From contig NZ_BMKD01000008.1 in assembly GCF_014643835.1 (NCBI RefSeq), positions 1-64,000 on the forward strand: a stretch of 64,000 nt of DNA, in the 5' to 3' direction. Made by a program: the position numbers and the translations under genes. Below are positions 2,683 through 21,714 of the stretch, piece after piece; the stretch's first letter is position 1, and the number at the start of each line of letters is the position of its first letter. The DNA comes from Mucilaginibacter rubeus (GTDB taxonomy: Bacteria > Bacteroidota > Bacteroidia > Sphingobacteriales > Sphingobacteriaceae). The notes below the pieces were generated by a model. The model did not search any database and was not told where the DNA came from. It saw only the letters and a program-made list of their open reading frames with translations.

Positions 2683-3606
2683 TTATGTTGATAAATCATG
2701 GGCCTGGCTTCGGTTATAGTAATTCTTCCATAGTTGCTCTGGCTTTGCTTTTTCTTCATGAATGGTATTCGGCGTCAGGTTGCCCAAGCTCATATGAGGC
2801 CGCTCGTCGTTATAAAGGCCGATCACGAAATCCAGCACCTGTTTACCTTCCTCTATGTTGTGTACGTTATAACTGCTGAGATACTCGTTCTTAATGATAC
2901 CATTGACCCGTTCGGCAATCGCGTTGTCCCTGGGGTCGCTGCTCTCGGTCATACTGATCCTGATATTGTTCTCTTCCAGGATCTGCAGGTATTCCTTACA
3001 GCAATATTGCAGCCCCCGGTCAGAATGGCGCGTTAAAAAGGATGCATCATCTATCGTTGTCAGGGCCATTTTGAGCGCATTGACCGTTTGTACCGCTAAC
3101 AAGTTCTCCGCCAGGTTGTAGCCAACGATCTTCCTTGAATAAGCATCTGTAATGAAGCTGATGTAAAGGAAGCCGCCATTGATCCTCCAGTAGGTTATAT
3201 CGCTCACCCAAAGCTGGTTTGGCCTGCGCGGCACAAAACCTTTTATCTGGTTTGGGAACTTTCGGTACATATGAAAAGAGTCGGTGGTCGATACACGCCG
3301 TTTATATCTTTTCACCAGTAGCTTGTGGGAGGCTAAGAGATCAAACAAAGCATCTCTGCCTATTTTGATCTGGTGCTCCAACAGAAAGGGCTGAAGCAGC
3401 TCATATAGCTTCCTGGTGCCCATATGGCGATGATCTTTCCTAAGTTGTATGACTTGTTTGATCACCAGTTCCTGCTCGATGTTCACTATTTCATTGTGCT
3501 GCCAGTGCTGGTAATAGGCTTGCCTGGTGATACCAAGCAACCGGCAGATCCTGGCCAGGCTTAAATCCTTGTTGCTTTCTTTCATTTTATAGATTACTTG
3601 GTACAT
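2683..3606 (-). CDS. IS3-family transposase OrfB (DDE integrase core)
   Basis: Catalytic half of the transposase that cuts and joins the IS ends. 307 residues: an HTH_21-like N-terminal part (KMGTRKLYELL-type segment near residues 60-70), then an rve integrase core with the DDE triad visible as VSDITYW, SDRGLQY and IAERVNG. The end of the core has the usual YNDERPHMSLGNLTP motif. It lies in the -1 frame relative to orfA, and its ATG falls just after the slippery heptamer, so the active protein is probably the OrfAB fusion. The gene is intact. Length and motifs are normal for IS3 elements. Confidence 0.92.
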   Translation of the reverse strand: MYQVIYKMKESNKDLSLARICRLLGITRQAYYQHWQHNEIVNIEQELVIKQVIQLRKDHRHMGTRKLYELLQPFLLEHQIKIGRDALFDLLASHKLLVKRYKRRVSTTDSFHMYRKFPNQIKGFVPRRPNQLWVSDITYWRINGGFLYISFITDAYSRKIVGYNLAENLLAVQTVNALKMALTTIDDASFLTRHSDRGLQYCCKEYLQILEENNIRISMTESSDPRDNAIAERVNGIIKNEYLSSYNVHNIEEGKQVLDFVIGLYNDERPHMSLGNLTPNTIHEEKAKPEQLWKNYYNRSQAHDLST

Positions 3607-10619: not shown

Positions 10620-11000
10620 ATGCAAACTCCCCGCTACACAGACGTTACCAGGTCCGGCAACAAGCGCATTAGTAACGAATTCGACGATCAGCTAACGAAT
10701 CCCGCAAGCATGGATAACTCCCAAGAGAAAGCCCCTGGACACGGAAGCTACGGGGCACTCTTGTTTGATCCAAAATGGAAATCCAAACGTGCGGAAATTA
10801 TAAACCGGGACCAAGCTCGTTGTGTCATTTGCAAGAGCGCAGATGAACTGCTCGTCCATCATCGCCAGTACCATTTTGTTAAAGCGGAGCAGGCATTTAA
10901 AATGCCCTGGGATTATCCCGGGCATCTCCTCATCACCCTCTGCCAAAATTGCCATCAGCGGGGCCACAGTAAATTCAAAGTACCAACCTTATTTATTTAA
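10620..11000 (+). CDS. HNH endonuclease-like protein
   Basis: 126 residues. Residues 48-116 carry an HNH domain: FDPKWKSKRAEIINRD, C68-x-x-C71, the VHH (H80, H81) of the beta-beta-alpha-metal motif, then LITLCQNCHQRGH with C108, C111, H112 and H116. The 45-residue N-terminal part has no recognisable domain. It would cut DNA non-specifically or at a structure. It is the first gene of a tight cluster: 5 bp separate it from the next gene, which is 1 bp from the DUF4407 gene. HNH genes of this small type are widespread; the link with the membrane proteins is what is uncommon. Confidence 0.78.
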   Translation: MQTPRYTDVTRSGNKRISNEFDDQLTNPASMDNSQEKAPGHGSYGALLFDPKWKSKRAEIINRDQARCVICKSADELLVHHRQYHFVKAEQAFKMPWDYPGHLLITLCQNCHQRGHSKFKVPTLFI

Positions 11001-11005
11001 AGATC

Positions 11006-11590
11006 ATGTTCAACTTTTTCAAAAGCACCGCAAAAAACGGTTCTCACACCTCCTTTAACGGGTCTGGGACAGCGACTGTTCCCCTACCGGAAATCGACGA
11101 GAAGGTATTTATTGAAACGTTACCGGCATCACCCGCCCCCGCGACAAGCAATTTTACTGAAAGCCGCCAATCGCCCGTGGACCACAATATCGCATTACTA
11201 TTTTCATTTTTAGACCGTAACCACGAAGCAAAAGGATATGATGACGCTTTACTTAACCCGGATAGCAGCCATTTGAATCAAAACTTGGATGCACTTAAAA
11301 ATGAGCTTAGCCGGACAATAAATAAAGTAAAAACCTTTTATGAGGATTTTATAAGGGAAACGGAATATCATATCACAAGCAGGGGACGAAGCGGTATGGT
11401 CGACATGGTAGAAGAACTTGAAATGAAAAAGAATATCGCATTGGGTCATATTGAAAAAGTAAAAGCCGTTGAAGATAGTTTGATGCAGGAAAATGGTGAT
11501 TGTAAAGGCATTTTGATTAGCTACACACGCGGGTTTAAAAATGGGCTGGCAGCTATTTCACATCATCATATTTTAACAAGGAGGTTTTGA
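11006..11590 (+). CDS. Unknown soluble protein in the HNH/DUF4407 cluster
   Basis: 194 residues, no signal peptide and no membrane helix. The first 70 residues are low in structure (rich in T, S, P and A); the rest is predicted helical with a coiled-coil-like run (LKNELSRTINKVKTFYEDF, then EELEMKKNIALGHIEKVKAV). It ends one base before the DUF4407 gene, so the two are probably translated together. No family recognised. It could be a cytoplasmic partner or regulator of the membrane protein. Confidence 0.68.
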   Translation: MFNFFKSTAKNGSHTSFNGSGTATVPLPEIDEKVFIETLPASPAPATSNFTESRQSPVDHNIALLFSFLDRNHEAKGYDDALLNPDSSHLNQNLDALKNELSRTINKVKTFYEDFIRETEYHITSRGRSGMVDMVEELEMKKNIALGHIEKVKAVEDSLMQENGDCKGILISYTRGFKNGLAAISHHHILTRRF

Positions 11591-11591
11591 A

Positions 11592-12590
11592 ATGAAAAAC
11601 TGGTGGATTAAATCCGGTTGTTTTTTGACCGGTTACAAATATGAGATCTTAGCAGGTTGCAGCGAAATTGCGCAGCGGGCCGTGAAACGCTACACTTCAG
11701 CCTTGTTGATTATATGTGTGTTATGGGCTTTTATTGGCTATTGTTTCGTAAGCAAATACCTTAAAGGCGAATGGTATATCAGTATCTTCGGTGCCATTCT
11801 GTTCATATTGATTATTCTGCAGGTCGAGCGTCAGATCATTCTCGCGGACGCAAAGGGCAAGGCCAAGTATTGGATCAGAGGATTGATCGCGGTTATTATG
11901 GCAATTATCGGCTCTATCGTGATAGACCAAATCATTTTTCAGCAAGATATTGCGCACAAGCAAAAACTCGAACTGAATACAGAAGTGGATGTAGTGCTGC
12001 CAGCTAAACAAGCGGAATTACGTAGGCAAACTACTGAAATTGACTCAAGCATATCAAAAAAAGAGGCAGAACGAGCAGTGTTACTGGACGAGCTATCAAA
12101 GCATCCGACCATTCAAATGGTGACAAAGGAAAAAAACAATGTGCCGATAACTTCGACTACTATTGATTCCAATAAATTATCCAAGACAAATACGGTATTG
12201 GTCAAAACAAGAGCTGTCACTGTGACTTCTGTACCTAATCCTAAAATGTCAATAGTACCGTCGTTAGACCAGCAGATCAAAGAACTGCGAACAATCAAAA
12301 CCGACCAAGAGAACAGATTGATCAAGCTAAGGAATGAAGTAGAACAAGATGTTAAAGCTGACAAAGGCTTTCTATACGAATTACAATTGATGTACCGTAT
12401 CCTTCACGACTCCGGGCCGGCATTGTTCGTTTGGGCACTTTGGTTTCTTCTGTTACTTGGCATCGAGATCTTTATTATGGTCAACAAACTATCACACCTC
12501 GAAACAGATTACGATGTCTGTATTCATCACCATATGGAACTGCAAAAAAGGAAACTTAAACTCTTGGCCATGCAGGTTCCTGAAGTTTAA
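11592..12590 (+). CDS. DUF4407 membrane protein
   Basis: 332 residues. Three membrane helices lie near the N-terminus (about 36-54, 62-78, 94-115), followed by a long coiled-coil segment (about 120-270) and a fourth helix (about 277-299) before a short basic tail. The NWWIKSGCFLTGYKYEIL opening, the QVERQIILADAKGK segment and the IGSIVIDQIIF block fit DUF4407. The coiled coil would lie on the far side of the membrane or span the periplasm. Function of the family is unknown. A second DUF4407 protein is at 35836-36954 but is only distantly similar. Confidence 0.82.
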   Translation: MKNWWIKSGCFLTGYKYEILAGCSEIAQRAVKRYTSALLIICVLWAFIGYCFVSKYLKGEWYISIFGAILFILIILQVERQIILADAKGKAKYWIRGLIAVIMAIIGSIVIDQIIFQQDIAHKQKLELNTEVDVVLPAKQAELRRQTTEIDSSISKKEAERAVLLDELSKHPTIQMVTKEKNNVPITSTTIDSNKLSKTNTVLVKTRAVTVTSVPNPKMSIVPSLDQQIKELRTIKTDQENRLIKLRNEVEQDVKADKGFLYELQLMYRILHDSGPALFVWALWFLLLLGIEIFIMVNKLSHLETDYDVCIHHHMELQKRKLKLLAMQVPEV

Positions 12591-12624
12591 GATAGTACAC
12601 ATACACCTAAACCTTACCACAATA

Positions 12625-13995
12625 ATGGGCTTATCATTTCGTAAATCATTCGGTTCCGGTCCCTTCAGGGTCAATTTCTCAAAAAGTGGCGTCAGTTATT
12701 CCGTAGGTGTCAAAGGTGCCCGCGTTAACTTTGGCCCCAAAGGAACCTATGTCAGCCTGAGTTCTCATGGCATCAGCTATCGTCGTAAAATATCGGGCCC
12801 GCAAGCCTCTATCCCCCAGGTTCAACCGCAGCTTACACCCGCTTTCACAGCAGAAACACATAACATCGCTTCAGCCTCCATCGGGCAGCTAACAGACACC
12901 GATTCCAGGGACTTTATTGCTGAGCTGACCAAAAAAGCAGGCCAAATATCTTACCTGAACTGGTTTGGCATTTTCCCGCTGATCGCTTTCCTTTCAGTCA
13001 TCCTGTTTACATCTTTTGGGAGCAGGACGCAGGTTACCCATCCAGCTACGGACAGTACACTCGTTAGAGTAACCAACTTTGAAGGCGTAAATATCCGGGC
13101 GACAGCTGACGCCCGGTCGGCGGTCTTAAAAGCCGCCTCTTACAGGCAAACTTTCAATTTATTGGATTCCTCGGATCCCAAATGGTTAAAGGTAGGCTTT
13201 AACGATTCTATAGGTTATATCAATCGCCGTTTTGCGGATTCTGAACACGTGCATCATGACGAAGAATCCGCCGAACAGACTTTCCTCGCCAATCCCTATG
13301 CCGCTTATGAGCTTAGTGCCGGACTGCTGATCTTTATCCCGCTGATCATCAAATTAAAAAAATCGGACAAAAAAAGATTTGAGATGGAACTACATTACGA
13401 CATGGATGAACAGTTCAAGCAAATCTATCAGCAATTTAATAATCATTTCGGTACATTCTCAAGATCAGCAAGGATATGGCAGTACCTTAACGCGAGTCCG
13501 ACCAATGATTATAAAAGGACCGGTGGTGCAGGTAAACTGATCAAAAGATCCCCGGTCCGAGGTATTTACGGCAACCGTTTACCTTTACCGTACTTTATCA
13601 CCAATGTTGCCATCCCACACCTCAAACTCAGCAACCTTGAACTATATTTTTTACCTGAAAGAATGCTTATAAAGCAAGGGGGCACCTTTGCAGCAGTTTT
13701 CTACAAAAACCTGTATATTACAGGTTATACCACCCGTTTTATTGAAGACGAAATGGTTCCGGCTGACGCGCAGATCGTCGATCGAACCTGGCGCTTTGTC
13801 AACAGAAGCGGCGGCCCCGACCGTCGCTTCAACAACAACCGCCAAATCCCCATCTGTGCCTATTCAGAATATACCCTGAGATCTGACACCGGGATCTATG
13901 AAGTGATTACGACCTCAAAAAAAGGCGCGATGGATACATTCAGTGACTTTCTCAGACAGATCGGGGATTTACAGGCCAGAATGGCCATTAGTTAA
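12625..13995 (+). CDS. DUF4236 / bacterial SH3-like two-TM protein
   Basis: 456 residues from ATG 12625; the in-frame extension to 12457 overlaps the DUF4407 gene and lacks family sequence. Residues 1-55 are a DUF4236 domain (MGLSFRKSFGSGPFRVNFSK, GPKGTYVSLSSHGISYRR). A membrane helix (111-131) leads to an SH3-like domain (147-203, FEGVNIRATADARSAVL...KVGFNDSIGYIN). A second helix (226-243) returns to a C-terminal domain of about 200 residues with repeated aromatic beta segments, which I do not recognise. It starts 34 bp after the DUF4407 gene and closes the cluster. Confidence 0.8.
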   Translation: MGLSFRKSFGSGPFRVNFSKSGVSYSVGVKGARVNFGPKGTYVSLSSHGISYRRKISGPQASIPQVQPQLTPAFTAETHNIASASIGQLTDTDSRDFIAELTKKAGQISYLNWFGIFPLIAFLSVILFTSFGSRTQVTHPATDSTLVRVTNFEGVNIRATADARSAVLKAASYRQTFNLLDSSDPKWLKVGFNDSIGYINRRFADSEHVHHDEESAEQTFLANPYAAYELSAGLLIFIPLIIKLKKSDKKRFEMELHYDMDEQFKQIYQQFNNHFGTFSRSARIWQYLNASPTNDYKRTGGAGKLIKRSPVRGIYGNRLPLPYFITNVAIPHLKLSNLELYFLPERMLIKQGGTFAAVFYKNLYITGYTTRFIEDEMVPADAQIVDRTWRFVNRSGGPDRRFNNNRQIPICAYSEYTLRSDTGIYEVITTSKKGAMDTFSDFLRQIGDLQARMAIS

Positions 13996-14186
13996 GTTTT
14001 AATGTGATTCGTTAACCCTATAATGCAAGAGGCCACGCGGTTCCAGGTATTGACAATTAACAGTGCTTCATCAAGTATTTTTCGAAGCAACTCATTGGAG
14101 AGATCTATCGATTTGTCAGTACGTAGATGAAGTAGCGATAGTACAAGTTTATCTTTTTCCTTTTGATTACGCTTTTTCTCCGCCAT
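13992..14186 (-). CDS. Possible small protein, convergent to the DUF4236 gene
   Basis: 64 residues, overlapping the end of the DUF4236 gene by 4 bp on the other strand. Sequence is charged then amphipathic (MAEKKRNQKEKDKLVLSLLH, LLRKILDEALLIVNTWNRVA), compatible with a small helical protein or the remains of one. No family recognised. Confidence 0.35.
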   Translation of the reverse strand: MAEKKRNQKEKDKLVLSLLHLRTDKSIDLSNELLRKILDEALLIVNTWNRVASCIIGLTNHIKT

Positions 14187-14558
14187 ATGGGCGTAAATAT
14201 ATCAAGCCACTGCTGAGAAAAATGATAATTTGGAAATTCCGTAGTCGTGGATCGAGACGTTCCGAAAAAGTGTACATCGAGTTCTATTACACTTTGACCA
14301 CGATATCTACCTGAACCAGACGTTTAAAATTTGATCTCATAAACACAACTCACCGGTGAAATGGGCGCGGAACGGCATGGTCAAGCAAAATGGGATATCT
14401 AAGTGAAGGAAATTTGGTTGTCAATCAAGATTCCTTCAACCATCTATTATATAATCATAGTCAGTCACCTAATCAAAATAAGTATATCTTAGTTAAATCC
14501 TTAATCATACATAAACAATAATCGATAATGTCGCGCACCGGCATTAATTAGACTTAAA
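14187..14558. other. Intergenic stretch, nothing assigned
   Basis: 372 bp before the two-gene operon. A 30-codon frame from ATG 14222 has no support. The last 100 bp are AT-rich and should hold the promoter of the operon; no convincing TAnnTTTG box stands out. No terminators or repeats seen. Confidence 0.4.
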
Positions 14559-15584
14559 ATGGAAGAAAGACAACTTATACTGCTCAATACATCTATATTT
14601 AAGATAGATTTAAAGGGAAACACAGTTTCCGAAACAGCATTGACAGCAGAAGACACAGATTTTTATAAATATATCAGAAGCTCAATCAATGAAGTTTCGT
14701 TGGCACCGGGAGGTCGAAAGTTCAAGCTCCGCAGTACCAATACAGAGGTAGTTAGTACCATGCTCCCGATCGCGATCAATCCAGTCGGCACTTCGTTCGG
14801 ACAAACTATTCCAAATCGCCTATTGAGGGAGGAGATCGCCGTTCAGGATAGGGTCGCCAGAATGGGTATAGAAGTTCACGAAGGCTTACTGATCATTTCC
14901 GTGATTGAGGATCGTGGCGTTAAAAAAATTGTGCTGTGCAAAGTAGAAGACATTCAATATATCGATAAAGTTGATTTGAAGCTAAATAGTGGGTATCCTA
15001 TCAGAAGAAAAATCTTCAGATCGGCGCAGTTTCATTTAAGCCAAGTGGACCTCGTTGAAAACATTGTCGTACATGATTTAAACAGTAAGGGCGCGACTTA
15101 CTGGTGGGATGATTTTCTGGAAATAGATCAATTCTGGGACGATATTTATAATACCAAAACAGCGTTTAATATTATTGACTCGAAAGTGCTTTCAAAATTG
15201 AAAAAGGAGTCGCCAGCCGACCATACCTATTTAAGAAATGCCACCATCAGATTTTTTCGTACGAACCAAGAATTTACTATTGAGAAGCTCATTGAAGCCT
15301 GTTTTGATAATTACGAAGCTGTGAATGCGACAAAAGTCGATATAGATAAAATAAAGGAGTCAATTAGAAAGCTCCCGGAAAAACATTCGTTCGATGAGCG
15401 GTTCAATTTAAAGCCTTCGGAAATAACAGCAAAAATAAAATATTCGATTAATCTAACAGAAAATATAGATTTGGTCATTAAGGATGAGATTAATATTGAA
15501 AGTACGATAACACCGGAACTACACAACAACAGAAAGTATATAAAGATTCGAAGTGACGCGGGTTATGACGCCTTCAAGAAATAG
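14559..15584 (+). CDS. Unknown soluble protein, first gene of a candidate defence operon
   Basis: 341 residues, no signal peptide, no membrane helix. The middle (DRVARMGIEVHEGLLIISVIEDRGVKK..., VLCKVEDIQYID) has the look of nucleoid-associated NdpA/YejK-like proteins or of the DUF4868 (KwaB-like) type, in which an early block is followed by alternating beta strands and a WWDDFLEIDQFWDD-type segment. This is resemblance by eye only and may be wrong. The gene is 15 bp from the next, which has a clear AGGAGG ribosome site, so the two form an operon. The position beside an IetAS pair suggests a nucleic-acid-sensing or effector role in phage defence. Confidence 0.6.
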   Translation: MEERQLILLNTSIFKIDLKGNTVSETALTAEDTDFYKYIRSSINEVSLAPGGRKFKLRSTNTEVVSTMLPIAINPVGTSFGQTIPNRLLREEIAVQDRVARMGIEVHEGLLIISVIEDRGVKKIVLCKVEDIQYIDKVDLKLNSGYPIRRKIFRSAQFHLSQVDLVENIVVHDLNSKGATYWWDDFLEIDQFWDDIYNTKTAFNIIDSKVLSKLKKESPADHTYLRNATIRFFRTNQEFTIEKLIEACFDNYEAVNATKVDIDKIKESIRKLPEKHSFDERFNLKPSEITAKIKYSINLTENIDLVIKDEINIESTITPELHNNRKYIKIRSDAGYDAFKK

Positions 15585-15599
15585 GAGGATTGGTATAAG
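15583..15599 (+). promoter_or_regulatory. Strong Shine-Dalgarno AGGAGG
   Basis: TAGGAGGA lies about 10 nt before the ATG at 15600. Such strong sites are uncommon in Bacteroidota, where most genes here lack one; it supports this start and may hint at foreign origin. Confidence 0.6.
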
Positions 15600-17075
15600 A
15601 TGATTTTTACAGATAACATTTTAAAACTATTTAGCAATGAATTCAAAATCACCTCGACAAGAGAGGATTTTGAGCGAGCTGAAGTTGTTTATCAATTGAA
15701 GTCAATCAATATACCCGATGCTGTAATATTAGAAGGACAATTAAAGAAAGTTTACGGATCGGATAAGTGCATAATTTACGTCAACATTGATGAGGCGACG
15801 GATGTCATTACGCATTCATTAAAAGGAGATTTTGAGCAATTCAAGAGTGAATTACAAGTAGGTATCGGAGGTATTGATGAGGATTCATCGATCATTATCA
15901 AGGTAGTGATAGAAAAAGCTATCGTTGACAAAAGACTGTTTTTATATTCCTTAGATAATATAAAAATATATCTGAATGATTTTGATGTTGCTGGGGCGGT
16001 ACTCTTCTTTGCAGACTTAATTAAGACACATGAGACAATCGTCCTTGTTTCGAATGATATCAAAAGCTCCTTCAATTCTGCATCCATAGCTTTTCAGCCA
16101 GAATCTGCTAATTGTGAACAGATAGGTTTTCTTGGTGACGCCACGAGGCAAAAACGCTTACGAAACATTCAGTCTACGACACACGCAATCGCTTTATCGG
16201 ATAAGCAAATCATCCCTGAGGATTTTCAATTCAATACGGAGCCGAGAGGCATCATCAAGAATGTTTTGTGTAAGATCGAGTTCGCTCTGTTGATTGTAGC
16301 CATTTTCGACAACAGCAGTATTAAGGAAAGCGAACTTACATTCCGGTTAAATGGATATAAAAGCATCGACGGGACAGTTAACCTGGAGGCGTTTCCGTTT
16401 GAAAATTATGTAGAGGAGTACCGAAAAATATACAATTGGATCCACGAGTCCGGAAATCTTACGGACAAACTTGGCCTCGCGAGAAACATCGTTTCCCTTC
16501 ATTTAAATTCGCAACATGATCTATCTTTTAGCGGTAACATGTTCAGTTCAATCTTGTCCGCTTATAAGGTTTACGAAAAACAGAATATCAAACAATACAT
16601 AGAAATACGAAACAAGATGTCGGACCAACTACTTGACTACAACAAGCGGGCAAATGCTATAGTAGAGGGGTTTGCGAGCACTTTTCAAAAAAGCGCCCTC
16701 TCTGTCTTAACTTTATTCTCATCGATGGTAGCTGTAAAAATACTGAGTACTTCAGCGATCTCACCAAAGTTTACAATGTACAGCACATGGTTCGCCATTC
16801 TGATACTAGTTATATCTTTCGTTTATATGATGATTTCCAGAAACGATACTATAGGACAGAAAAAACGTTATAAAAAGAGTTACAAAAACTTCAAACTACG
16901 TTATAGCGATCTTTTGAATGCGGATGATATAGACCGAATTTTGATCGGTGATAAAGAGTTCAAAGCGGATAAAGCTTTCATCAATAAAAAGATTAGTATC
17001 TACACCATTCTTTGGGTAGTGGTATTAGTTGCACTATCTGCATTTGTCGCTAGTTATTACCTCAGCCAGAAATAG
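15600..17075 (+). CDS. Unknown three-TM membrane protein, second gene of the candidate defence operon
   Basis: 491 residues. The first 350 are cytoplasmic-type sequence without a recognised domain (repeated hydrophobic strands such as CIIYVNIDEATDV and ETIVLVSNDI, then a helical part). Membrane helices lie at about 362-382, 394-413 and 466-487, with a basic 50-residue loop (RNDTIGQKKRYKKSYKNFK) between the second and third. A large soluble sensor domain plus C-terminal membrane helices is the plan of several abortive-infection effectors that damage the membrane, so that role is plausible but only inferred. The downstream gene on the opposite strand is IetS. No homologue is known to me by name. 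Confidence 0.6.
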   Translation: MIFTDNILKLFSNEFKITSTREDFERAEVVYQLKSINIPDAVILEGQLKKVYGSDKCIIYVNIDEATDVITHSLKGDFEQFKSELQVGIGGIDEDSSIIIKVVIEKAIVDKRLFLYSLDNIKIYLNDFDVAGAVLFFADLIKTHETIVLVSNDIKSSFNSASIAFQPESANCEQIGFLGDATRQKRLRNIQSTTHAIALSDKQIIPEDFQFNTEPRGIIKNVLCKIEFALLIVAIFDNSSIKESELTFRLNGYKSIDGTVNLEAFPFENYVEEYRKIYNWIHESGNLTDKLGLARNIVSLHLNSQHDLSFSGNMFSSILSAYKVYEKQNIKQYIEIRNKMSDQLLDYNKRANAIVEGFASTFQKSALSVLTLFSSMVAVKILSTSAISPKFTMYSTWFAILILVISFVYMMISRNDTIGQKKRYKKSYKNFKLRYSDLLNADDIDRILIGDKEFKADKAFINKKISIYTILWVVVLVALSAFVASYYLSQK

Positions 17076-17554: not shown

Positions 17555-20098
17555 TTAACTGCTAGGAACCGGTACTGTGATCTGATTGAGCACACTGTTG
17601 TAGATGTTCACGTTTGTCTCATCGGTATCAATGGACACGATCAAGCTGTATCGCACCGTATCATTTGCTCTCTTTAAAGACTTCCTTGTTTTATACCAGC
17701 CATTTTTGGGATAAACTGCGATGACGTTTTGTAGCGCCAAGTCCGCGCCGGAGGTGGTAACGAAATCCTTTTTCAAGCTGCCCCGATTTCTTGAAGTTTT
17801 AAGCGACCACTGCTCGCCTTTTCGGTCAACAGCCTCAGCTTCCTCAGATTCTTCTTCTGATGCTTTGGAAACTCGTTTTTTAAAGGTATCCAAATCTTCA
17901 GTAGCCTTTATCAACATAAAGTCAAGCCCATGCGAATGATATTGAAAATTATTCGCCCATCGGCGGTCTCCCGGATTGGGTTCGATAAAATAAGAGAGCG
18001 TAATTTTCAGTCGGACATTTGCTGCTGCCAGTTCGTTCATCAGAATTTCCGCAGGCCAGGGTAACTGATAAAGATGATAATCGTTGTATTTAGGATCTTT
18101 GGTTCCTTCCTGTTCGAATGGCTTGATCGATCTTTCCATTACAAGATTAAGACTATTTGATGCAGAGTAAAGCGCTCTTTCCAAATTTGGAACCCCATAA
18201 CCAAATCTCCTTAACAACAAGCGCTTTTCGTTGGTCGAAGCAGGAAAGGTCCTTTTGTTTCCCAGCATTCGCGGTGAGTAATCCGCGGAATGAACCATAA
18301 GTGCACGAATCGTTTCCGGCCACAATTCTGGATATTGAGTCGCTATCTCTGCCGCCATTTTTGACGCCAGGGCGGCAGCACCACTAGTGTCCCCGAACAG
18401 TTGAAATCCCTGGTCAAGCCTTTTGCTGGTACTAATCAACTGGAGAGAATCCGAATTTGAGACATTTTTCTTATTGGTAGTCAGGTTGCCGCCCTCCATG
18501 ACGATATCAGGTTTGATTGGCCATTGGTTGTCCCAAATCAGCGAAGTCGAATTGGAAGGCGACATTCCTCCTCTCGGCGCGAGCAAAGTGAACCCGGGAT
18601 CTTCGTCCGGATCGAGTCGATCTTTCATAGTGTAAGTGCCTACCGTTAGGGCATTATAAGATTGTCCGGGATCGTGGATACTCGAAGTATCATTCAAATC
18701 GGTGTAGTCGTCGTGGTTGTTCGTAAAAACATTGCCACTGCTGATAATAAACAATTGTTCCTGTTCGAAATTCTCAGCGTTGCCGAAAGCCAATTTATCG
18801 ATCATAGCCGACCAGGAAGATGGACGGCCACGCTGTGCGGTATCAGGATCACAGATACTAAGGCAGAAAATGCGCCTGTTGTCCGGTTCAACACTAGCGG
18901 GTAGGTTTACGGCATTTTGCATGATTACGCCATATAATTCTGGATCGTTCACAACGTCAAATTGTTTGACCTTAAACGATTCCAATCCATATTTGATGGT
19001 AATCCTTGATGGCGTAGTAAAGGCATCGGTAAGGTCGCCATACAACGCTAATCCGGCCATTCCTGTACCATGACCTCCCTGATGCCAGCTGTCATGATTT
19101 CCCCAGGCCGAATTATAGGAATACATTCGGTTATTGGGTAAAAAAGGCTCAATTAATGGGTGGAGATTATTAACGCCGGTATCAAGTAAGCAAATCAATA
19201 CGGCATTGTCGTCGAGCTCGACATTCGTCCGGTTAACCAGATCCTTCACCCAATCCTTCTTACTGGTGTATCCCTCACGGGTGAAACAATCAGCAGTTTC
19301 CTGAGGATTGCGTAATTCCGCCAGGTTATCCAATAACAATAACGAGGATGACAGCTGATTTGCCGTAGCCTTGACTAACCTAACCGTGTGTTCCGGAAAA
19401 GTCAATATTGAACTACCGACCTGAGCGCCAATCTCGCGCAGGTTATCCATAACACGTCTTGTTCTGAACACATCATTATCTGTGCGCCTGAACCAAACTT
19501 CCCACCATCGGTTTTCCTCAGGATCAGGGAACGGCATTAAGAACTCGTCACTCCAAAACTCACGCAGGGTTGCCATTTGGATCAGGCTAAGGTTCGCAAA
19601 AAGCTTATTGTTCTTAGGTCCGTTATTTACTAATTGCCCGTCTTTATTGGTTTTGATGTTATCTTTCGCGGGGTCCAGATAATCCTCCACATACTTGATA
19701 AAGTGGCTGATACCACCTTTGGTCATCATAACAAGCGTTTTAAATCGCTCAGAAGGAACTTCATCATCAGAGACTTCTTTCGTAACCTTTAAAATCTGGT
19801 ATTTAGGTTTCGCGGTATCACTATGAAGACTTGAAAAACTTAGCGGGAAATTCCATTCGGAAACAAACTCCACGTAAATGGATTCATCCTGTACGATATT
19901 GGAGGGCAAAACTTCATTTTGAAGTTGCTCAAAATCTTGCTGAAGCTGATTTAACTGATTTAGAATTTGACCACCGTGAATGGCGCGATTCTGACTGGCA
20001 ATTTTGGCGGGATCGACAACGGTATGTGGGTATTGGTAATCTTGGTCGGAGGAAAATCCTTCGAGTTTGATATGCGGTAAATTCGGAATAATTGGCAT
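17555..20098 (-). CDS. ietS: IetS-like subtilisin (S8) protease of an IetAS defence system
   Basis: 847 residues. An N-terminal part of about 290 residues without recognised motif (with a coiled-coil-like GGQILNQLNQLQQDFEQLQNE) is followed by an S8 subtilase domain with the catalytic triad D306 (CLLDTGVN), H343 (GGHGTGMAGL), S572 (GDTSGAAAL), and oxyanion N456 (ISSGN). About 200 further residues follow, with a second beta-rich region (AANVRLKITLSYF). No signal peptide, so it acts inside the cell, as in IetAS. It overlaps the AAA ATPase gene by one base (TGATG), implying coupled translation. IetAS protects against certain phages in published work; protease targets are unknown to me. Confidence 0.85.
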   Translation of the reverse strand: MPIIPNLPHIKLEGFSSDQDYQYPHTVVDPAKIASQNRAIHGGQILNQLNQLQQDFEQLQNEVLPSNIVQDESIYVEFVSEWNFPLSFSSLHSDTAKPKYQILKVTKEVSDDEVPSERFKTLVMMTKGGISHFIKYVEDYLDPAKDNIKTNKDGQLVNNGPKNNKLFANLSLIQMATLREFWSDEFLMPFPDPEENRWWEVWFRRTDNDVFRTRRVMDNLREIGAQVGSSILTFPEHTVRLVKATANQLSSSLLLLDNLAELRNPQETADCFTREGYTSKKDWVKDLVNRTNVELDDNAVLICLLDTGVNNLHPLIEPFLPNNRMYSYNSAWGNHDSWHQGGHGTGMAGLALYGDLTDAFTTPSRITIKYGLESFKVKQFDVVNDPELYGVIMQNAVNLPASVEPDNRRIFCLSICDPDTAQRGRPSSWSAMIDKLAFGNAENFEQEQLFIISSGNVFTNNHDDYTDLNDTSSIHDPGQSYNALTVGTYTMKDRLDPDEDPGFTLLAPRGGMSPSNSTSLIWDNQWPIKPDIVMEGGNLTTNKKNVSNSDSLQLISTSKRLDQGFQLFGDTSGAAALASKMAAEIATQYPELWPETIRALMVHSADYSPRMLGNKRTFPASTNEKRLLLRRFGYGVPNLERALYSASNSLNLVMERSIKPFEQEGTKDPKYNDYHLYQLPWPAEILMNELAAANVRLKITLSYFIEPNPGDRRWANNFQYHSHGLDFMLIKATEDLDTFKKRVSKASEEESEEAEAVDRKGEQWSLKTSRNRGSLKKDFVTTSGADLALQNVIAVYPKNGWYKTRKSLKRANDTVRYSLIVSIDTDETNVNIYNSVLNQITVPVPSS

Positions 20099-21075
20099 CA
20101 GATCTGTTTCTTGTGAAGGGCCTGGTTAAGTAAAGATAAAGATAACGAATTTCTATCGTTCAAAATCATATACTTAATGACCTCTTCACAGGCTTTAACC
20201 AGATCAGAATAGTTTAAGTTTTTGGCGACTTCAGCAAGAAGGTCGAAGTCGGGAGTTTCGTCAAAATCAAAGAATGCGGTTTTGTCGCGCAGGATCTGTG
20301 CCGCTTCGTCGATTGTTGGTAACGGATATTTGATCACTTCATCGAAACGGCGGAACAAAGCCTTATCCAGCGAATCCGGAAGATTGGTCGCCGCAATAAT
20401 GATGCTTTCGCTCTGATCCTTCTCAATGTTGATCAAAAAGCTGTTGAGTACTCGTTTTACTTCACCAACGTCCTGGCTCAGGTGACGGTGAGATCCGATA
20501 GAATCAAATTCATCGAACAGGTACACCGCACGTTGTGAGGGCATGGAATCGAAAATCATTCGAAGCTTGACAATGGATTCGCCCATGAACTTCGACATGA
20601 TCCCATCCAGCCTTACAATAAATACAGGAATGCCCAGTTCACCCGCAATGGCTTCCGCGGTCATGGTCTTCCCGCATCCGGGAGGCCCCATCAACAGCAG
20701 TTTGCGCTGTGGAGCAAGGTTGTGTTTCCTTAATATTTCAGACTTGCGCTGCTCATCGATCACCCGGGTAAGGGTCGTACGTAACTCAGGCTCGAGGATC
20801 ATGTCCTTCAGCGTGACCTGCGGTTGGAAAATATCGATGAGCTCCGCGAGTTCGCGTTTTTGCGGAGAAAGATGAACGGTTTTATTCCGGTCCAGTACAT
20901 GATGTGACCGTTTCTTTTTGGCCAGATCAATGAGATCCCTTAGCTCGGCTGCGATGTTATTGTGGCCCTGGCGCGCTTCAGAGGCAGCTATTTGTATAGC
21001 CGAAGAGAAAAAACGATCCTCATCACCCTCACCGAATGATTTGATCAAACTCTTTATTTGTTCCGCAGCCGCCAT
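20098..21075 (-). CDS. ietA: IetA-like AAA ATPase of an IetAS defence system
   Basis: 325 residues. A helical N-terminal region (1-90) precedes one AAA domain: Walker A GPPGCGKT (130-137), Walker B VYLFDEFD (184-191), sensor-1 N231 in AATNLP, and arginine-finger region FRRFDEV (241-247). The N-terminal part may sense the infection signal, and the ATPase would regulate or feed the protease encoded just after it, as proposed for IetAS. Same operon with a one-base overlap. The AAA core is typical and complete. Confidence 0.87.
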   Translation of the reverse strand: MAAAEQIKSLIKSFGEGDEDRFFSSAIQIAASEARQGHNNIAAELRDLIDLAKKKRSHHVLDRNKTVHLSPQKRELAELIDIFQPQVTLKDMILEPELRTTLTRVIDEQRKSEILRKHNLAPQRKLLLMGPPGCGKTMTAEAIAGELGIPVFIVRLDGIMSKFMGESIVKLRMIFDSMPSQRAVYLFDEFDSIGSHRHLSQDVGEVKRVLNSFLINIEKDQSESIIIAATNLPDSLDKALFRRFDEVIKYPLPTIDEAAQILRDKTAFFDFDETPDFDLLAEVAKNLNYSDLVKACEEVIKYMILNDRNSLSLSLLNQALHKKQI

Positions 21076-21610
21076 CGCGCAAAGTTAATGATAAAGTAGG
21101 ATTGTTGCCGGAATATACGTAATTTATACAATAACAAGCCCTAAACCTACTAATTTATTTAGTTGAACGCAATTCCGCCCCATTTTGTTGTACCCGCGTG
21201 CGGACGTGCATAGCGAAATTTACGAAAATGAATTTCAGAGGATCTAAAACAGGCCGAGCTCGCCTAATTTCGTGGATGACGGCAAAGGAAGCGATTCAAA
21301 ACTCCGGCAAAAAATCAATCTATGGGGACAGTTTTACCCGGCGTAATTGAGGAAATGATCATTGCGGCTAATGCTAATGTGGATGATTATAAGAATGCTC
21401 GAACCATACACGCTATCAATAAAGAATAACTGAACATTATCTATCTGTTGATTGACAAATAATGTTTATATGAAGAATATTGTGACGTAGTTTCTTTGTA
21501 ATAACCTCCTCATTCCTTACTTTTACATTAATCATTTGAAATCAAACAGCCTATAAATAAAAGTGAGTTTTAGGAGAGTTGCTTTTATAAGAGTTAGTAA
21601 AATATTGACA

Positions 21611-21655
21611 ATGAGCGAGTAGTGAACGTAGTTCATGTCCCGTCCATTCCGCAGA
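21611..21655 (+). other. Degraded tRNA 3'-end-like sequence, candidate att site
   Basis: The string GTTCATGTCCCGTCCATTCCGCA resembles the T-loop and 3' acceptor of a tRNA that would begin GCGGAA, but the T-stem and the 5' part are missing. It is followed 21 bp later by a strong terminator, as intact tRNA genes often are. It lies where accessory DNA gives way to metabolic genes, so it may mark the insertion boundary of an integrative element. Confidence 0.3.
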
Positions 21656-21675
21656 AAAGCATTTTAAAAATGTTC

Positions 21676-21714
21676 AAAAGCCTTTAAATCATGCGATTTA
21701 AAGGCTTTTTGTTT
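21676..21714. terminator. Perfect bidirectional terminator
   Basis: Arms 21676-21690 and 21695-21709 pair over 15 bp without mismatch around ATGC; A and T runs on both sides allow use in both directions. Confidence 0.9.

Follow-up and report, generated by a model that had tools for sequence, protein, structure and literature searches.

A linked gene pair of Mucilaginibacter rubeus with a predicted YejK-type protein and a membrane partner: a probable anti-phage defence system

Here we describe a pair of genes in a 64,000-nucleotide stretch of Mucilaginibacter rubeus DNA (contig NZ_BMKD01000008.1, positions 1 to 64,000; hereafter the window), which an original prediction, made from the sequence alone, had singled out as a possible new defence system. 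Judged from its sequence, the pair is probably an uncharacterised anti-phage defence system, consisting of a soluble protein remotely related to the nucleoid-associated protein YejK and a membrane-anchored partner. Its features are as follows.

14559..15584, + strand: gene 1, 341 amino acids (aa), ATG start, soluble protein, remote NA37/YejK/NdpA relative (phrog_30064)
15583..15588, + strand: Shine-Dalgarno-like AGGAGG that overlaps the stop codon of gene 1; gene 2 starts 11 nucleotides (nt) further on
15600..17075, + strand: gene 2, 491 aa, ATG start, membrane-anchored partner (phrog_32650)

A conserved and co-inherited pair

Gene 1 and gene 2 share a strand and are separated by 15 nt, and the sequence bears out the original prediction in its two open reading frames (ORFs), their coordinates, their spacing and the Shine-Dalgarno sequence before gene 2. 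The three kilobases over the pair have a GC content of 0.35-0.39, lower than the 0.41-0.49 that prevails in the first 40 kb. A scan for promoters and terminators returned no more matches than in shuffled sequences, and scans for Rfam families and tRNAs came back empty.

With the window gene 1 as query, we found eight full or near-full homologues, namely in Chitinophagaceae, Marivirga, Flagellimonas, Flavobacterium (two), Chryseobacterium (cut by the contig end), Moheibacter and a Photobacterium replicon; a ninth, in a viral contig, was found with a relative's gene 1. The next gene is a gene 2 homologue in all nine loci, albeit a very distant one in Photobacterium (E 0.033 against the window protein alone). 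A gene 2 profile search added three loci, two among 397 genomes and one among 251 (the latter refound as one among 100), and gene 1 lies directly upstream in two of them. At the third (L058, genome G638), gene 2 lies 128 nt from the contig end, a stretch that does not code for gene 1; gene 1 was not found in G638 by a search that does detect it in G781 and G1053, and we count this gene 2 as an orphan. An additional survey, with an alignment for which there was no positive control, yielded none among 395. The adjacency of the homologues, whose complete absence would have told against the original prediction, thus holds in 11 of the 12 loci besides the window.

In the 12 pairs, that of the window among them, the intergenic distance ranges from -14 to +15 nt, with a gene overlap in place of the spacer in eight. 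Sequence identity among homologues is 22-66% for gene 1 and 13-57% for gene 2, and since such diverged homologues keep the two-gene order in all 12 loci, the ORFs do not owe their existence to chance. Furthermore, the distance matrices of the two genes correlate (r 0.914, Mantel p 0.0002, 12 pairs), as expected if both genes moved jointly. Phage records held no match to the window gene 1, the window gene 2 or the gene 1 of the viral contig, plasmid records held a single match (Photobacterium pDA100), and IMG/VR, queried with single proteins and an alignment, held one contig (L063, identical to L064 and L065 and counted once).

Relationship to known families

On the level of the individual proteins, neither gene has a match beyond chance level in Pfam, NCBIfam or PADLOC. 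When nine members of each gene were compared with PADLOC 2023, the results stayed at chance level (Cas2 with E 0.019 for one gene 1; RTasSLATT with E 5 for one gene 2, over residues 359-445 of the window protein), and the Iet models did not match the pair. Sequence and profile matches in the PDB (calcium-channel beta subunits, adenylate kinase with E 0.009, SIFV0014 with 0.049) were dismissed as chance, as were scattered single-member Pfam matches (ING 0.0032, T26-6p 0.005 and Phage_holin_3_6 0.0076 at best). Both proteins do match PHROG families of unknown function, gene 1 phrog_30064 (E 8.9e-26) and gene 2 phrog_32650 (E 5.2e-39); neither name was found in the literature searched, the scope of which leaves out most subscription papers, including the Kiwa paper.

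More sensitive comparisons connect gene 1 to the NA37 family, which comprises YejK and NdpA. In hhalign, it aligns to 39 NA37-like proteins, a set that was itself collected with the gene 1 profile, with probabilities of 97.1 and 97.8 (E 5.2e-11 and 1.1e-12) over 300 and 310 columns; a Pfam check assigned six of six of this set to NA37. The top fold match of the predicted gene 1 structure is the solved YejK (PDB 9be2), over residues 4-341, so that gene 1 is predicted to have a YejK-type fold. Both groups also share a YW-x-x-DFL-type motif, present in strict form in 28 of the 39 NA37-like proteins and as YWWDDFLE or close to it in 12 gene 1 members. The vague resemblance to NdpA noted in the original prediction is thereby substantiated as a remote relationship, by profile as well as by fold. 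However, gene 1 differs from NA37 proteins proper in being accessory, in being tied to gene 2 and in lying below Pfam detection, with no match to PF04245 at E up to 10 among the nine members scanned. NA37-like proteins, for their part, were matched once in each of 25 genomes, and no gene 2 was found within 2-4 kb around them. Weak gene 1 matches in relatives (34 of 100) and in Bacteroidota genomes (25 of 395) at first suggested further members of the family, but six that were checked proved to be NA37; we regard these matches as superfamily relatives and left them uncounted.

The original prediction had also likened gene 1, vaguely, to KwaB, the soluble component of the Kiwa system. KwaB is indeed the next solved protein after YejK in the fold ranking of gene 1, but this match is not significant, PF16162 (KwaB) found nothing at E up to 10 among nine gene 1 members, and hhalign against 12 KwaB sequences gave probabilities of 0.3 and 0.1. 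Kiwa (KwaA-KwaB) nevertheless resembles the pair in its layout, with two genes encoding a soluble protein of 300-350 aa and a membrane partner. At all 12 KwaB loci examined, the gene directly upstream encodes 144-280 aa as called, with two to four hydrophobic segments, whereas the membrane gene of our pair encodes 491 aa and lies downstream.

The original prediction had further allowed that a clear match to a non-defence family could speak against it, and here the outcome is divided: NA37/YejK proteins are nucleoid-associated, yet the accessible text of the one directly relevant report that we found describes a system from E. coli, predicted by DefensePredictor and validated as anti-phage, that contains a YejK nucleoid-associated domain (PMC13092281). 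It is quite unlikely, though conceivable, that the pair is a distant branch of this system. Nine of the 11 systems with newly validated domains in that report span at least two bacterial classes, which would allow for such a distribution; but its main text, as far as accessible, names no partner of the YejK gene, gene 1 does not reach Pfam NA37, and the pairs L063 and L021 have no DNA match in the E. coli collection, a comparison that is blind to distant proteins.

Three hydrophobic segments (369-387, 395-413 and 465-483) are found towards the C-terminus of gene 2, in line with the three transmembrane (TM) helices originally predicted; likewise, none was detected in gene 1, which had been called soluble, at the threshold applied. 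In the structural model of gene 2 (pLDDT 74.5, pTM 0.62), a mixed alpha/beta part extends to about residue 326 and is followed by long helices (331-490) with the three TM segments, while residues 218-236, a fourth stretch of hydrophobic character, form a helix within the soluble part of the model. Fold searches with gene 2 gave nothing significant, only long-helix look-alikes. Because none of the libraries searched contains a named relative of gene 2, its structure would add new information. The pair thus appears to follow a known plan, a membrane partner with a DNA-binding protein, built on the YejK fold and a new membrane family.

Defence genes and mobile elements in the neighbourhood

The following features of the window lie outside the pair.

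17555..20098, - strand: IetS (subtilase), convergent with the pair; PADLOC IetS E 1.1e-32, Peptidase_S8 E 1e-56
20098..21075, - strand: IetA (AAA ATPase); PADLOC IetA E 8.8e-70
2683-3606: rve-type transposase
630-2240: mobilisation ORFs, named by eye, with matches in genome G001 at the far end of its corresponding variable region

The convergent IetAS genes had been recognised correctly; they adjoin the pair both here and in L026, but form a separate system. Of the mobilisation module and insertion sequence also proposed, the latter is borne out by the transposase, whereas the former is named by eye. Homology to G001, the nearest genome used for comparison, begins at window position 21676, with 91-96% identity in two long pieces of the queried stretch. 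Because the G001 stretch that spans this junction holds other genes in place of the pair and IetAS, neither of which was found there, we consider the region to be a variable accessory one.

Several further observations concern this region. The junction itself lies at 21414-21676, and the two pieces, side by side in the window, are separated in G001 by about 10 kb of genes that look by eye like efflux and oxidoreductase genes. Against NCBIfam equivalog cut-offs of 510 and 900 bits, the window IetA and IetS score only 173 and 54.6, respectively, far short of both, and therefore represent a divergent IetAS branch. Upstream of the pair, an accessory ORF run (10620-13995) includes proteins with DUF4407 (11592-12590, E 1.9e-45) and DUF4236 (12457-13995, E 1.2e-15).

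We compared selected flank proteins of 10 loci with PADLOC, counting matches with E 1e-30 or better. The proteins were picked by hand, four genes flanking the pair in the window and then 10 + 10 from other loci; the flanks of L021, L059 and L063 lie outside this comparison. It gave the following matches.

Window: IetA, IetS
L026 (Flavobacterium branchiophilum): type IIG restriction-modification immediately upstream; IetS and IetA on the downstream side
L060: AbiEi and AbiEii upstream; GajB and GajA downstream
L025 (Flagellimonas): OloA, about 6 kb off
L024: HKD+Snf2 helicase fragment
L029: PDC-S02, which has candidate status only
L058: SoFic, next to the orphan gene 2

Known or candidate defence genes hence lie near the homologues in seven of 10 loci, each tested in part and with no background rate computed, which is not the conserved core setting that would have told against the original prediction. 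There was no match for the flanks of L023 (one protein) and L028 (three proteins), and only a weak AAA match for L027. Recognised systems flank both sides of the locus in L026 and L060, an arrangement that is hard to put down to chance. We did not rely on a PADLOC 'dCTPase' match (6.5e-113) that L029:243-1739 gave over model positions 200-552 of 630. As side observations, IetS (+) and IetA (-) of L026 (6459-9943), both good PADLOC matches, stand tail to tail with a 4-nt overlap, as opposed to the single operon in the window, and L025 encodes a 1623-aa protein directly beyond gene 2 (11585-16456) that is possibly a fused restriction system, with partial PADLOC matches of methyltransferase-like (6.4e-12) and helicase-like (1.1e-6) type.

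Mobile elements are a second recurring context. The L063 pair lies between a terminase large subunit and late activator on one side and a Rha-like regulator and head maturation protease on the other, a cargo position in a prophage-like genome, and integrase-like ORFs were seen by eye within about 5 kb of the pair in L028, L029, L059 and L060. These surroundings would also suit a module for the maintenance or transfer of mobile elements, without a role in defence, in which an NdpA2-like gene 1 is anchored by gene 2: NdpA-type genes are reported on mobile elements in the accessible parts of two studies (PMC10561277, PMC9927451), the second of which describes that NdpA2 of PAPI-1 stimulates the conjugative transfer of that element. 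We nevertheless find such a module distinctly improbable, as the carriers are dissimilar (accessory regions, a prophage-like contig and a 2.1-Mb replicon), the recurring recognised neighbours are defence genes, even if no systematic search for transfer genes was made, and defence systems ride the same elements.

Proposed function

From the linked, conserved and co-inherited pair, the predicted fold of gene 1, the membrane segments predicted for gene 2 and the defence and prophage contexts, we infer a role in defence, binding between the two proteins, DNA binding by gene 1, the topology of gene 2 and a sensing step. Our tentative reading, at a probability of about 0.4, is that of a mobile two-gene anti-phage system analogous to Kiwa. 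The three C-terminal helices of gene 2 would hold it in the inner membrane, with its other domain in the cytoplasm, and gene 1 would be docked on it as the DNA-binding part. By analogy with Kiwa, gene 2 may sense a membrane event of phage entry, or may merely position the complex at the membrane; gene 1 would bind incoming or replicating phage DNA, and replication or transcription would be blocked. We favour such a membrane-tethered DNA-binding system because a YejK-fold protein with a membrane protein among defence genes fits the plan of KwaB, which, according to the accessible text of PMC12904381, binds injecting DNA at the membrane protein KwaA and stops replication and late transcription without cutting. 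YejK, in turn, is described in the accessible parts of PMC10561277 and PMC9927451 as binding double-stranded DNA and modulating topoisomerase IV. While the original prediction had cast the soluble protein as a sensor, it is more likely the DNA-binding part. What counts a little against simple DNA binding is that the gene 1 protein is not basic.

The main rival is abortive infection through a membrane effector, in which gene 1 would be a sensor or regulator, responding to phage DNA or to a change of the nucleoid, and the three helices of gene 2, once released, would open or depolarise the inner membrane, so that the infected cell dies. We consider this mechanism somewhat unlikely.

If the membrane-tethered DNA-binding system is real, the YejK fold would gain a clear job, the binding of foreign DNA at the membrane without cutting. 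A YejK-fold DNA binder joined to a new membrane anchor or sensor would then be a DNA-trapping defence parallel to KwaB, perhaps with shared deep ancestry, and the NA37 fold the common root of several non-cutting, DNA-binding immune proteins, a broader view that we regard as unlikely but worth stating. The pair would represent a second design beside Kiwa, and the fold could link both.
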